DNA of 38,363 nt from a virus, in the IMG/VR virus record IMGVR_UViG_3300019776_000711, positions 1 through 38,363 of that record, one strand, 5' to 3'. A program made the translations under genes and the position numbers. The notes beneath the pieces are model-generated. The model was not told the origin of the DNA, made no database searches, and saw only the letters and a list, made by a program, of their open reading frames with translations. Positions 1,570-5,819 of this stretch are shown here, piece by piece. The stretch's first letter is position 1. Every line of letters starts with the position of its first letter.

Positions 1570-3969
1570 TCAGAACGGAATTCCACCGTCACCCCCTTCA
1601 ACGCCGTCAGCATCGCCCCCATTTGCGCCCGGAGTAACCGGCGCAGGCGGCTGATACCAAAACCTGACAGCGTTCGACCTTTTTTCGATACGCGTGCAAC
1701 CAAGCATGATGAGCGCCTTCCCAACGCGCGTTTGAATATCGCGCGACAACCTTGCCGCATCGATCTTCAAATACTCAACAGCATCGGACATCTTGAAAGC
1801 ACTCACCTGCTGTTCCAAAAATCCCGCCAGAATCTCGACATAACTATCCGTCTGATGCCGCTTAATCTGCTCAGGATCAAAAATCTTCTTCTGCTCATCA
1901 GAATTAGGCCAGAACCGCTTTCCCTGCCTGTAAAGCTCAAACGCCTCAGCAAACAACTGATCGCGTGCTTTCTCCAACCCATCGCAATCAATATCAGCCC
2001 GGCACTCAATCGGCCAAAACCTTCGCCCCCCGGTCTCATCCTTGTTCCAACCCCAGTTGACGTTGGTGCTTCCACTGAACACAAGCTGGCGCGGGCTGCG
2101 AATGTCCCTGCGTCCATACGGCGGGCGGTATTCGTCCACCTGCCGCGATAAAAAAGACTTCTGCCTCGTCGCTTCCGCCCGCGCGATTGAATCAAGCTCG
2201 GAAAACTCATAAAGCCACTTGCCGCGGATCGACCCGAGCGCATCCTTGCTTTGCAGATCAAGGTCCGTATCACCGAACCACTCACCGCCCAGCACGCGCA
2301 ACATCGTCGACTTACCGCGTCCCTGAGAACCCTCAAGCACCAGGCAGCAATCGAACTTCACACCCGGCTGCATCACGCGCGCCACCATGCCCATCAGGAA
2401 CCACCGTGAAACGCGCATCACATAAGGCGACTTCTCAGCACCAACATAATCCGAAATCCAATCATCAACGCGCCGCACACCGTCCCACGTCAGCGAATGC
2501 AAGTAATCGCGCACCGGATGGAAACCATTCGCCCGCGCCAGCGCTTCGACGGCCTCCGCCACCTGCGCAGGCGTAGGCGCAAAACCATACTCGCGCGTGA
2601 GCCACATCGAAGCCTGCACATCGTCGTTCGCCTCCCATTCGCCCACAACACCCAGGTCAAACGGCGGCGCTTTCCGCTTCTCGATCGTGTAAGAAAACTC
2701 ATTGAACGCCAGAACATCATCCCAGCGCTTATCGGTGCGAAAAATATCGTAAATATTCGCTAAACAAGGAACGATCTTGCAGTCTTTATTCAACAACAAG
2801 CCGTTATCTGAACGATTGATAATAACTTTTGGCTTCTGCTTATCCGGTTGCTTTCTGACTTTGCCTATAATTTCTCTCAGATCGAATGCATCAATACCCT
2901 CAGAAATCGCATCCGCAATATCCCATCCATCCGGCTTATCGCCAGGCTTCGGAATATCGACAAACTGAAAATCAACATCCGGATCCAGCTCAATCAAAAT
3001 CTTGTGAATATCGCGCATCGCGCGCATACCGGGCTGATCGGCTTCCGGTAGTAGTGGAACGGATTCCGGATCAACGCCAGCCGCCTTTTCCTCTTTAGTC
3101 AGCTTGCGCCGCTTCGAATCGCAATCCGCCCAGGCAAAAACCTTTCGGCCAATCAACGGACGCCAATCTGCCTTGTGCACAGCCTTCGTACCACCCGGCC
3201 AAGTCACAACAGCATAATGATCTTCCAGCAGCTCAAAACCAGCATCCGAGCACTTCTCACCCTCAACCAGCAACACCGGCAAATCGGCACACGCCGCAAG
3301 CCGGTCAAGCCCGTACAAAGGCCGCGCGTTATCAGAAAACGCCATCCATCGCCAATCCAGCTTGCCGTCATCATTATTGCGGCAATAACAAACCGGCAGC
3401 GTCTCTTTGCCGCCGTCCGAAGTCACAAACCGGTAAACATACCCATTCACCCGTCCATCCGCCGCGCGGTACGTAAAAATCTTTTCCGGCTTCCCGCGCA
3501 CGTAATGTGCCACCGGCGGAACCGGCGCATCATCCGGCACCGGCATAATCGCAACCCACGGGGATTTTTTATGTTTCTCGACCGACTCGACCAATTCGAG
3601 ATGCTTCTCTACCGGTTTCTCATGTTTATTTTTTCGACCAGATTTGAGGTGCTGACCGGAATCCTCGACATCAACACCAACCATCGCAGCAACATCCAAC
3701 GCCGCCTGCTTCTGATCGCAAAACCGGATGTACGCATACAGAGAAATCAGATCACCGCCGGAATCACTGGTAGCGTTATCGATCCACTTGCCGGTTTTCG
3801 CACTGATAACAAAAGACCCAGGCCGGCGGTCATCGCGCGTAGGATTGCGCGGCTTATACTCATCACCCGACCACTCACCACCCGGCAACCACTCCACCAG
3901 CAACCGGCGCGCATGGATTAATGCTGCGGCTGCTATTGCATGGAAATCGATGGGCGGTGATTTTTTCAT
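1570..3969 (-). CDS. Phage DNA primase-helicase (TOPRIM + VapE-type ATPase)
   Basis: A 799-residue replication protein. The N-terminal part (about 1-100) resembles primase leader regions. A TOPRIM-like segment runs about 230-290, with VEGEK at 235-239 and ADCD at 281-284. The C-terminal half is a VapE/D5-like helicase: Walker A GSQGRGKST at 547-555, acidic box YEFSELD near 587-593 and an arginine-rich stretch FSGSTNVNWGW...GGRR at 631-650. The end has a winged-helix-like segment (about 725-770) and a Gly/Asp-rich tail finishing GGDGGIPF, like an SSB tip. ATG 3969 overlaps the stop of the alternate-frame ORF upstream and abuts the methyltransferase stop. It probably initiates phage DNA synthesis at a nearby origin. 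Confidence 0.9.
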   Translation of the reverse strand: MKKSPPIDFHAIAAAALIHARRLLVEWLPGGEWSGDEYKPRNPTRDDRRPGSFVISAKTGKWIDNATSDSGGDLISLYAYIRFCDQKQAALDVAAMVGVDVEDSGQHLKSGRKNKHEKPVEKHLELVESVEKHKKSPWVAIMPVPDDAPVPPVAHYVRGKPEKIFTYRAADGRVNGYVYRFVTSDGGKETLPVCYCRNNDDGKLDWRWMAFSDNARPLYGLDRLAACADLPVLLVEGEKCSDAGFELLEDHYAVVTWPGGTKAVHKADWRPLIGRKVFAWADCDSKRRKLTKEEKAAGVDPESVPLLPEADQPGMRAMRDIHKILIELDPDVDFQFVDIPKPGDKPDGWDIADAISEGIDAFDLREIIGKVRKQPDKQKPKVIINRSDNGLLLNKDCKIVPCLANIYDIFRTDKRWDDVLAFNEFSYTIEKRKAPPFDLGVVGEWEANDDVQASMWLTREYGFAPTPAQVAEAVEALARANGFHPVRDYLHSLTWDGVRRVDDWISDYVGAEKSPYVMRVSRWFLMGMVARVMQPGVKFDCCLVLEGSQGRGKSTMLRVLGGEWFGDTDLDLQSKDALGSIRGKWLYEFSELDSIARAEATRQKSFLSRQVDEYRPPYGRRDIRSPRQLVFSGSTNVNWGWNKDETGGRRFWPIECRADIDCDGLEKARDQLFAEAFELYRQGKRFWPNSDEQKKIFDPEQIKRHQTDSYVEILAGFLEQQVSAFKMSDAVEYLKIDAARLSRDIQTRVGKALIMLGCTRIEKRSNAVRFWYQPPAPVTPGANGGDADGVEGGDGGIPF

Positions 3970-4712
3970 TTAAGATTCACATCGCAGGAGGTTGAATGCC
4001 ATTGCAGCCACTGCCGGTACTTGCCCGTTTCCAATGGCGACAGTTCTGTCCACCCTTGCGGCCATGCCATTACCTCTTCCAAGAATCCAGGATTCGGGTA
4101 TACAGTTTTCTCCGCATTGCTGTATTTCGCCAAGAACTCGCGCAATGTCAGTCCATTGCGATGCGCATGATTCGCGCGCCTCTGTACTTGGTATGGCGTC
4201 GACCCTTTGTGATCCGTTGCCGTCGGTGTAGGCAACAAGCCAGAAACGTTTCCGGTTGTGATGAAACCCGGCGTCGATCGCTCCCATAATTCCCCATCTC
4301 GCATCGAACCCCATGACGGCAAGGTCACCAAGGATTCTGACAAGTCCTCTGGAAACAAGGAGTGGTGAATTTTCCAGGAACACGAACCGCGGTCGAACAT
4401 CATCGATAATGCGCGCCATGTGCTTCCACAATCCGGATTTTTCTCCGTCGATTCCTGCGCCTTTCCCGGCAACGCTGATGTCTTGGCACGGAAATCCGCC
4501 AGAAACGACGTCAACAATTCCGTTCCACGGCTTTCCGTCAAAACTGCATACGTCAGACCAAATCGGGAAAGGTTCGAGAATTCCATCGTTTTGCCGTTGC
4601 GCGAGAACTTGTGCGGCGTAGGCATCACGTTCAACTGCACAGACTGTTCGCCACCCGAGCAACTTCCCCCCGAGTATTCCGCCACCAGCGCCCGCGAAAA
4701 GAGCCAGCTCAT
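3966..4712 (-). CDS. Full-length ORF overlapping the methyltransferase in another frame
   Basis: 248 codons, lying almost wholly inside the cytosine methyltransferase gene on the same strand, one frame apart. The product has PTPTATD at 161-167 and MAWPQGWTEL at 215-224. I recall proteins with such PTPTA(S/T)D and GWPxGWT motifs as frequent hypothetical ORFs at phage methyltransferase loci, often overlapping them. Its ATG forms an ATGA overlap with the stop of the upstream gene (4709), and its TGA forms an ATGA overlap with the primase start (3969). Both are typical of genuinely coupled phage genes. Whether it is translated cannot be shown here. The alternative is a conserved shadow frame of dcm. 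Confidence 0.45.
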   Translation of the reverse strand: MSWLFSRALVAEYSGGSCSGGEQSVQLNVMPTPHKFSRNGKTMEFSNLSRFGLTYAVLTESRGTELLTSFLADFRAKTSALPGKAQESTEKNPDCGSTWRALSMMFDRGSCSWKIHHSLFPEDLSESLVTLPSWGSMRDGELWERSTPGFITTGNVSGLLPTPTATDHKGSTPYQVQRRANHAHRNGLTLREFLAKYSNAEKTVYPNPGFLEEVMAWPQGWTELSPLETGKYRQWLQWHSTSCDVNLK

Positions 4713-4728
4713 TCACCAGCAGCCCCAT
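3970..4728 (-). CDS. dcm: DNA (cytosine-5) methyltransferase
   Basis: A 252-residue C5-cytosine methyltransferase. Motif I is FAGAGGG (11-17), motif IV GGFPCQ (77-82, catalytic Cys81), motif VI LENSP (118-122; usual ENV), motif VIII HHNRKRFWLVA (156-166) and motif X AIGNGQVPAVA (231-241). The stretch between VIII and X is short, so the target-recognition domain is reduced compared with typical 300-400-residue enzymes. The likely role is host-evading DNA modification; the recognition sequence cannot be read. ATG 4728 has GGTAAGA before it; GTG 4716 with GGGG upstream is an alternative. The stop (TAA 3972-3970) directly precedes the primase ATG. A second ORF covers almost the whole gene in another frame. 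Confidence 0.9.
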   Translation of the reverse strand: MGLLVNELALFAGAGGGILGGKLLGWRTVCAVERDAYAAQVLAQRQNDGILEPFPIWSDVCSFDGKPWNGIVDVVSGGFPCQDISVAGKGAGIDGEKSGLWKHMARIIDDVRPRFVFLENSPLLVSRGLVRILGDLAVMGFDARWGIMGAIDAGFHHNRKRFWLVAYTDGNGSQRVDAIPSTEARESCASQWTDIARVLGEIQQCGENCIPESWILGRGNGMAARVDRTVAIGNGQVPAVAAMAFNLLRCES

Positions 4729-5026
4729 TCTTACCGACGATCAACCCAGCATGATCCCGCAAAATCTCAACTACCCAATCCGGATTCAGCCCGCACATAT
4801 CGCAGAAGAAAACATGCGTGCCGCGGGTAAAAAAATCGTATGACATGGTGCGCCAGTATTTATTGCTCGGTGTCTTATCCATCAGATCGGAAATCGCATT
4901 CAGAATCACCGCCAGCATCAGCCTTTGTTCCGGCATATCGAGCTCTGCATGACGAGTCAGCAAATTGGCAATATTCCGCGAATTGCCGCGCGTGAGATCA
5001 TTGTTGTTAAATAATGGGCCAGCCAT
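4709..5026 (-). CDS. Conserved-looking phage protein, replication cluster
   Basis: A 105-residue protein with the C-terminal pattern SYDFFTRGTHVFFCDMCGL followed by NPDWVVEILRDH. It resembles small phage proteins of the type xxFxxICxxLGLDPDWVRxxL, which I know only as uncharacterised. The start is ATG 5026 with GGGGAG seven bases upstream, one base after the CII-like stop. Its end overlaps the methyltransferase start by 20 bases and the alternate-frame ORF by four (ATGA). No enzyme motif is seen. Confidence 0.65.
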   Translation of the reverse strand: MAGPLFNNNDLTRGNSRNIANLLTRHAELDMPEQRLMLAVILNAISDLMDKTPSNKYWRTMSYDFFTRGTHVFFCDMCGLNPDWVVEILRDHAGLIVGKNGAAGE

Positions 5027-5027
5027 C

Positions 5028-5510
5028 TCATCTCCCCCTATTCATCTCAGCCGGGTTAACCATCGATTTAAGCCGCGCGATCAACTCAGCATCGGCGGCC
5101 GCGTAATCCAGATATTCTTTTTCGATACGCTCAATCTCGCGCAGATCGATGCGCCCATCCTGCAACGCATCCCGGCACGCCTCAGCCCACTGCCCGCGCT
5201 CATGCTCGGAGCGGAAAACCAGATCGAGCAACTCCTGATCAGAAACGCCGGAAAACTGCGCCATCGGAATGCACAACATAAACCGCAGCCGCGCAATTTC
5301 CACCGCGATGCGGTCCGTGTTGAGGATCTCCATCAACACCAACAACTCATCCACTCGCAAATGATGCGTGTCACAAGTCGTGCTGACCTTCTTCTGCAAA
5401 ACATCGCCGGTCATGTTCGGAAAACCCATGCCGCGCATCCGCTCAGCAATCGCTGAACACCCGCCCTTGTGAGCGTGCACCTCCGCATAAATCGCATCAA
5501 ATAAACACAT
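5028..5510 (-). CDS. Phage regulatory protein CII, CP76-type
   Basis: A 160-residue protein. The segment LFDAIYAEVHAHKGGCSAIA, then GDVLQKKV, CDTHHL, DELLVLMEIL and a late SDQELLDLVF, matches the layout of the CP76/CII family of phage regulators as I recall it. The N-terminal half is a helix-turn-helix-like DNA-binding part. ATG 5510 is preceded by GAGGAG six bases upstream, better than the longer frame to 5552. It is the second regulatory gene of the leftward operon, after the Cro-like gene and ahead of replication, the usual cII position. It probably influences the lysis-lysogeny choice. Confidence 0.75.
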   Translation of the reverse strand: MCLFDAIYAEVHAHKGGCSAIAERMRGMGFPNMTGDVLQKKVSTTCDTHHLRVDELLVLMEILNTDRIAVEIARLRFMLCIPMAQFSGVSDQELLDLVFRSEHERGQWAEACRDALQDGRIDLREIERIEKEYLDYAAADAELIARLKSMVNPAEMNRGR

Positions 5511-5819
5511 GTCGCACTCCTCAAAAATTCGCCGCTGACAATCCGTTGTCAAAGCCGTATCGTGCTAACTGCGCACTTCTGGAACACCCTGCCACGTCAA
5601 AGGAAGAAAACCGTGGCAGGGCTCCAAGGCTCACGCCCAAATATCCCGCCATGTGGAGCGAGATATAAAAACCATTCAAAAAACCCCGGCCACCCGCGAA
5701 CAAGAACTGAAGAGATTCAGCGAGCGGCCGGACAGTTAGTGGCTCATCATTTACAGATCCGGTTCACCGGCATAGCACCGCTTTTAGCCGAACTGGCGCG
5801 ACTGGCTTCACAACAAAAA
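5511..5819. other. Gap between cro-like and cII-like genes with a strong hairpin
   Basis: I see no convincing gene in these 309 bases. They hold a 10-base perfect inverted repeat, CCCTGCCACG (5587-5596) and CGTGGCAGGG (5612-5621), with a 15-base loop and no T-run. It could be an RNA hairpin in the leader of the CII-like gene, or an operator. A 91-codon plus-strand frame (5562-5837) is unsupported. Confidence 0.45.

Follow-up and report, generated by a model that had tools for sequence, protein, structure and literature searches.

The question raised by this locus is whether a single stretch of phage DNA encodes one protein or two. The stretch is virus record IMGVR_UViG_3300019776_000711, classed by IMG/VR, and all 38,363 bases of it are referred to here as the window. 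A C5-cytosine DNA methyltransferase (MTase) gene of the dcm kind, designated alpha, lies on the minus strand and shares almost its whole length with a second open reading frame (ORF) on the same strand, designated beta or ORF2. An earlier note on this DNA had reported the two overlapping ORFs, and a check of the coordinates found both as reported, beta being in the +1 frame relative to alpha. The note offered two readings, genuine dual coding or a shadow frame kept open by conserved MTase sequence; dual coding is upheld by relatives of the locus, in which the frame is open at 80 of 80 loci and third codon positions are conserved, and the shadow frame is not. Judging from sequence comparison, the locus is most likely a two-subunit DNA (cytosine-5) MTase of the M.EcoHK31I type, with both genes on the same DNA in two frames. 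The ORFs are regarded as subunits of one enzyme because alpha has no recognisable motif IX and beta, which has a stretch resembling a target recognition domain (TRD), appears to supply it.

3970..4728, minus strand: alpha, C5-cytosine MTase, putative large subunit with motifs I-VIII and X, 252 amino acids (aa)
3966..4712, minus strand: beta (ORF2), 248 aa, +1 relative to alpha, proposed second subunit with a TRD-like stretch and motif IX

Stop codons and selection in the second frame

Stop codons were counted against a null in which alpha's synonymous codons were permuted, keeping its amino acids and codon usage. For the window alone, 0.5% of 200 permutations leave the +1 frame without a stop (0 stops seen, 3.2 expected), so that the earlier estimate of a chance near 1e-5 for an open frame of this length is too low for the locus alone. 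Relatives were drawn from sets that favour near kin: a viral set for which alpha was the sole query (best 80 of 595 confirmed relatives), and others holding the best 80 of 118 and the best 80 of 154 (beta matches in a genome collection). At all 80 alpha-selected viral loci a relative of beta is found in the +1 frame and is stop-free over the matched span. The sample for stop counts comprised 162 usable loci of 177 (loci with a broken or short alpha and the distant phages L087-L096 were left out), reduced to 116 by a redundancy filter, of which 63 were alpha-selected, the window included. In the +1 frame of these 63 loci, 276 stops are expected and 2 are seen; the frame is stop-free in 61 of them against 0.96 expected. 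By region, the counts seen and expected are 0 and 38.3 over residues 1-60, 0 and 149.6 in the next region, and 2 and 88.9 in the last. Both of the stops seen (in L142 and L153) fall where beta ends 56 and 95 nucleotides (nt) before alpha. The +2 frame of the alpha-selected loci is not depleted and contains more stops than the null (947 seen, 742 expected). In a control of 17 one-chain C5-MTase genes, which passed a motif filter out of 34 loci tried (19 passed a looser filter and were used for hhalign), 320 stops were seen in the +1 frame against 323 expected and none of the genes was stop-free. The stop-depletion check proposed in the earlier note thus supports dual coding, and the pattern that it had named as contrary, a second frame carrying stops beside an intact dcm with no third-position excess, was not found among the 80 alpha-selected loci.

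More distant relatives show where the depletion begins and ends. Six distant loci were fetched by alpha, of which four are nested, one (Javan308, from a Streptococcus phage) is one-chain and one (Yeet) is split differently. The four nested loci, from Paenibacillus, Sulfitobacter, Nodularia and Porphyromonas phages, contain 0 stops over codons 60-160 against 12.9 expected, whereas the first 60 codons of the same loci, which serve as a control, contain 13 against 10.5 expected. Eight more distant nested loci, from phages of Pseudomonas, Vibrio, Stenotrophomonas (two), Bacteroides, Synechococcus, Mycobacterium and Microbacterium, were found by beta, which favours open frames. Summed over the twelve loci, the +1 stops seen and expected are 33 and 30.7 in the first 60 codons, 0 and 34.2 over codons 60-160, and 7 and 17.6 between codon 160 and a point close to the end. 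Beta is full-length in two of the twelve (PS-1 and the Vibrio phage), and the single early stop in each is the stop at the start junction. At ten distant nested loci, beta cannot start until 23-66 codons into alpha, and its maximum length is 168-218 residues. Harrison, S-H1, BU730P1 and the Porphyromonas and Nodularia phages have their late stops downstream of the motif IX-like segment of beta. The stop depletion tracks the extent of beta and not the MTase gene as such, because the first 60 codons are undepleted where beta starts inside alpha and the late stops follow the motif IX-like segment. Because beta starts inside alpha at ten distant loci, the full-length beta of the window clade most plausibly arose when an older nested gene was extended at its 5' end by overprinting.

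Selection was assessed on 57 of the 63 loci (those with an alpha of over 290 codons were left out), among which shared ancestry inflates the z-scores. With alpha alone preserved, the null for the mean pairwise BLOSUM62 similarity of beta is 0.42 and the value seen is 1.81; with beta alone preserved, alpha scores 3.20 against a null of 0.42. Beta lies above the alpha-preserving null in 12 of 13 segments. The earlier note had also called for a test of third positions, and at the 4-fold degenerate third positions of alpha (47 columns) the homozygosity is 0.54 against 0.30 expected from codon usage, again in favour of dual coding. A direct comparison within the closest pair, the window and L238, is a weak test; changes that are synonymous in alpha and nonsynonymous in beta number 53 against 33 expected. 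A neutral yardstick sought in the flanking genes of five relatives gave no control, as three flanking genes were unmatched on the plus strand. By these comparative measures, both frames are conserved and protein-coding.

The two chains and the layout of the locus

Alpha features the PF00145 domain (2e-29, 103.5 bits with a cut-off of 22 bits, profile positions 5-169 of 324), motif IV as GGFPCQ and motif VI as ENS where an ENV-type motif is expected, and it thereby qualifies as a C5-cytosine DNA methyltransferase. It also matches phrog_363 (5e-57). The earlier note credited it with all core motifs; motifs I-VIII and X are indeed there, and neither motif IX nor a small domain is recognisable in alpha, where the PF00145 match stops at position 169. 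An hhalign comparison with 19 canonical MTases likewise ends after motif VIII (columns 5-168). Alpha is thus no one-chain C5-MTase, in which motif IX and the small domain lie in the same chain. The predicted structure of alpha has a predicted template modelling score (pTM) of 0.71 and matches M.HhaI best (Z 18.8, 205 residues aligned), and the predicted local distance difference test (pLDDT) falls below 50 at residues 170-214, the expected position of the small domain.

Beta matches phrog_1008, annotated as 'DNA methyltransferase' (1.2e-16). PHROG families 363 and 1008 bear that same name, yet they represent different halves, with alpha in 363 and beta matching 1008. No family in Pfam or NCBIfam was matched by beta, and the beta family has no credible Pfam match. 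The motifs PTPTATD and WPQGWTEL, picked out in the earlier note, are present in ORF2. Comparable sequence occurs in the one-chain actinophage MTases Nimbo gp63, Derg gp4 and Propionibacterium B22 gp50, where LPTPxAxD-type stretches follow motifs I-VIII and a segment like FxEWMMGWPxGWVT adjoins motif X (GNGVCPQQA), all in one frame. A hidden Markov model (HMM) of the beta C-terminal part (residues 155-240) matches Nimbo gp63 with 31.1 bits (main segment 25.2), Derg gp4 with 28.5 bits (22.5) and B22 gp50 with 18.8 bits (16.8), the main segments lying between motifs VIII and X in frame 0. Among 220 shuffled proteins only one was reported at E<=1, with 5.1 bits. These matches make it clear, at the level of sequence, that the C-terminal part of beta and the TRD/motif IX stretch of one-chain phage MTases are homologues, and this segment is no shadow because in the one-chain enzymes, where it occupies the position of motif IX, it shares the frame of the catalytic motifs. 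Beta residues 1-100 gave no matches to the one-chain and split MTases tested. The motif IX-like segment ranks among the most conserved parts of ORF2 across the 57 loci assessed for selection. An ORF2 set comprised 77 rows (73 of 109 listed, three distant phage loci and the window).

Two side observations concern these actinophage genes. The MTase of Propionibacterium phage B22 (L320 159-2258) features an intein-like insertion directly after the motif IV Cys. In phage Poenanya (L321 914-2004), a short methylase ORF and another beside it take the place of the single one-chain gene found in the related Nimbo (L318 750-2774), and the two-ORF form looks like a frameshift.

The remaining features of the locus are as follows.

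4486..4488, minus strand: alpha catalytic cysteine codon (C81 of GGFPCQ, motif IV), read from the sequence and invariant in the alignment of alpha relatives (A2)
4212..4238, minus strand: beta LLPTPTATD motif, residues 159-167, resembling the TRDs of one-chain actinophage MTases
4041..4100, minus strand: beta motif IX-like segment, residues 205-224, YPNPGFLEEVMAWPQGWTEL, whose HMM matches one-chain and split MTases just ahead of motif X
3994..4038, minus strand: alpha motif X, AIGNGQVPAVAAMAF, frame 0, read from the sequence, with GNGQVP conserved in alignment A2
4710..4716, minus strand: start junction GTG-A-ATG (alpha start codon, one base, beta start codon)
4709..4712, minus strand: ATGA overlap of the upstream gene stop and the beta start
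3966..3969, minus strand: ATGA overlap of the beta stop and the downstream primase start

Three MTase layouts were seen. The one-chain layout has all motifs in one frame. In the split layout with partial overlap (Dylan 7/6, Blue7 92/91), the first gene carries motifs I-VIII and the second, in +1, carries the TRD, IX and X. In the nested layout, the first frame carries I-VIII and X and the second frame, with the TRD/IX, lies inside it. By its motif order, the window locus is of the nested type. In Mycobacterium phage Yeet (L329 1429-3313), MTase ORFs 112 and 114 do not share a frame; ORF 112 contains a nested HNH endonuclease ORF, and motif IX-like sequence is in ORF 114.

The closest known system is M.EcoHK31I, a two-polypeptide C5-MTase specific for YGGCCR, whose small subunit has 176 aa and is encoded within the large-subunit gene in another frame. 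Set beside it by description and not by sequence, the window is alike in having a large chain with I-VIII and X and a second ORF in another frame of the same gene; it differs in being a phage locus and in that the beta of its clade equals alpha in length, beginning 4 nt behind the alpha start and continuing to the end of alpha. The ten distant nested loci, with a beta of at most 168-218 residues, resemble M.EcoHK31I in the size of the second frame. PMC3404938 describes the large subunit of M.EcoHK31I as carrying motifs I-VIII and X, with motif IX in the smaller polypeptide, and M.AquI as two polypeptides with motif IX in the small one. In M.AquI (CYCGRG) motif X is also in the small subunit, unlike in the window, where motif X (GNGQVP) is in the alpha frame and which is therefore not of the M.AquI type; the M.AquI layout is shared by the split actinophage pairs Dylan 7/6 and Blue7 92/91. 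Genes 6 and 7 of Cluster O mycobacteriophages (Corndog, Dylan) are similar in being overlapping methylase genes in two frames, the second encoding the C-terminal MTase part, and different in that the overlap is partial and motif X lies in the second gene, whereas the second gene of the window is wholly nested and motif X lies in the first. Coding potential was noted in their overlap, and PMC4351075 leaves open whether two products or one frameshift product result. No literature on double coding at phage dcm genes was found beyond this paper, although most subscription journals lie outside the coverage of the search, which makes this weak evidence of absence.

The ATGA overlaps with both neighbours that had been described in the earlier note are there: the terminal ATGA of the upstream gene (4709-5026) starts beta, and the ATGA start of the downstream gene (1570-3969), a VapE-like primase/helicase (PF05272), contains the beta TGA. 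At 68 of the 80 alpha-selected loci the junction reads NTG-A-ATG, an alpha start codon with the beta ATG 4 nt later; four loci have TTA-A-ATG, where alpha must begin upstream, and eight have other patterns. Given this preponderance of NTG-A-ATG, the real start of alpha is probably GTG 4716 (248 aa) rather than ATG 4728. By a loose definition, 58 of the 72 loci with NTG-A-ATG or TTA-A-ATG have a Shine-Dalgarno-like stretch in the 18 nt upstream, a count for which the chance level was not computed. The GTG-A-ATG of the window has no strong Shine-Dalgarno sequence, and coupling to the upstream gene is therefore likely. A CII-like regulator (phrog_101) is found at 5028-5552, and together with the VapE-like primase it gives the surroundings a resemblance to the early region of a temperate phage.

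In the proposed mechanism, ribosomes on one mRNA would initiate at NTG for alpha and, 4 nt further on, at ATG for beta, giving coupled and roughly matched amounts, and the two chains would assemble one to one. Beta would supply motif IX and all or part of the DNA-recognition domain, as in M.EcoHK31I. The target of the enzyme would be cytosine within a short site selected mainly by beta, and the methylated phage DNA would probably be protected against host restriction.

Weighing the explanations

A shadow frame, in which the conserved amino acids of alpha keep +1 open and beta is never made, draws on the permutation probability of 0.005 for the window alone and on Javan308. The +1 frame of this one-chain Streptococcus phage gene is open over codons 60-160 (0 stops, 4.7 expected) and is matched weakly (37 bits), over motifs IV-VIII, by the middle of the beta profile. 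Alpha motifs IV-VIII thus impose some beta-like sequence, part of the mid-beta similarity is a shadow of alpha, and similarity over beta residues ~64-155 is no proof by itself because the Javan308 frame matches there. The shadow idea survives to that extent. As the main cause it was rejected on the stop depletion, which holds with alpha's amino acids fixed, the undepleted canonical genes and the 80 open alpha-selected loci; the third-base homozygosity, the recurrent NTG-A-ATG start and the occurrence of the beta C-terminal part in frame 0 of one-chain MTases also speak against it, and it is now very improbable. Programmed frameshifting could instead fuse alpha I-VIII to the beta TRD/IX so that the fusion is the active enzyme, an option also raised for the split Cluster O genes (PMC4351075). 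Fused forms exist: in L016 and L055 an indel after motif VIII joins the N-terminal part of alpha to beta motif IX, and there is a similar ORF on a Picosynechococcus plasmid (L406, related to that of L407). A fusion is nevertheless unlikely because beta has its own start, 4 nt after that of alpha at most of the 80 loci, and residues 1-60, which a fusion would not use, are under selection, and because motif X, downstream in frame 0, would be lost. The frameshift-fused ORFs themselves (L016 2497-3393, L055 2497-3273, L406 1723-2736) run from motifs I-VIII into motif IX with motif X in another frame.

It is also doubtful that beta is made and acts apart from the enzyme, for example as a regulator, inhibitor or anti-restriction protein. 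The unmatched first 100 residues, the lack of a credible Pfam match and the loci where alpha alone is broken would fit such a role; the homology of the C-terminal part to the TRD/IX of one-chain MTases, the absence of a recognisable TRD/IX from alpha and the same division in known split enzymes do not. The broken loci were counted in three sets. Beta is stop-free and unshifted at 80/80 alpha-selected viral, 78/80 beta-selected viral and 77/80 profile-selected genome loci, and alpha at 76/80, 76/80 and 72/80, several of the apparent alpha stops being its natural end when checked stop by stop. An internal alpha stop with beta intact occurs at 7 of 240 loci (L010, L110, L242, L260, L270, L296, L305), six of which were beta-chosen; L292 has stops in both frames and L317 in beta only.

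Several observations weigh against a two-subunit enzyme. The seven loci just listed are among them, since alpha breaking more often than beta is not what is predicted for obligate partners; decay, sequencing error or a role of beta without alpha are possible. Internal stops also occur in 6 of 40 beta-profile rows from Pseudomonadota genomes, and some copies there are therefore decayed. The beta consensus GKLNPTWVEWLMGWP aligns with canonical motif IX RRLTPRECARLMGFPD gap-free and in register, but without significance (hhalign E 0.043, probability 1.2%), and at two distant loci the motif IX part is weak (phiGT1, 11.8 bits) or gives no match (Nodularia). The predicted structure of beta is poor (pLDDT 57.8, pTM 0.26), which would fit a protein that folds on a partner and equally one without a fixed fold, and a search of solved structures with the beta profile found none (the best was villin, E 0.32). 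Conservation is lacking in the last beta segment (z -2.8), and between the window and L238 the changes synonymous in both frames number 5 against 0.9 expected. There is also some discrepancy regarding the TRD: the predicted TRD of M.EcoHK31I is in the large subunit, according to PMC3404938, and because alpha retains a variable region of its own, the location of the TRD between alpha and beta is uncertain.

Distribution, annotation and meaning

A search of 398 Pseudomonadota genomes with the beta profile matched 25 genomes (40 rows, 31 places), and at all 31 places the match overlaps alpha in +1 on the same strand. Homologues of ORF2 apart from dcm, which the earlier note had suggested looking for, did not turn up in 16 of 66 phage records (L081-L096) or at the 31 Pseudomonadota places, seven plasmid records having been left out. 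Among the best 80 of 154 matches in the bacterial genome collection, the closest relatives of beta are from Nitrosomonas, with 74% identity, and the host of the window phage is therefore likely Nitrosomonas-like. Other matches listed from this collection carry the labels Phycisphaerae, Verrucomicrobia, Anaerolineales and Patescibacteria; some of these records are metagenome bins, for which the label may be wrong. The Picosynechococcus plasmid of L407 has a nested pair with motif IX-like sequence in +1, as judged by eye. The nested type occurs in phages or bacteria of several phyla. Among 15 beta-chosen phage records (L081-L095), 12 annotate the alpha frame only, three the beta frame only and none both. 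In the public phage records L085, L088 and L090, beta alone is annotated, as a hypothetical protein or a methyltransferase, and alpha is omitted.

Comparison of these loci suggests that a widespread class of phage 'orphan dcm' genes probably consists of fully nested heterodimeric MTases, with the recognition subunit encoded within the DNA of the catalytic one; in the window clade the recognition subunit would have been overprinted to the whole shared length, with starts 4 nt apart. The principle of nesting is already known from M.EcoHK31I, and what would surprise specialists is how widely it occurs in phages, that the overlap is full-length and that annotation lacks it. If this is true, genome annotation omits half of a phage enzyme, and MTases cloned from alpha alone would look inactive. 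The finding also bears on whether overlapping methylase frames in mycobacteriophages give two products or one, the question left open in PMC4351075. Among the same-strand double-coding gene families of bacterial viruses, alpha and beta would rank with the longest and most conserved, and the locus would be a natural test bed for double coding, in which over most of the length each base serves two selected proteins.

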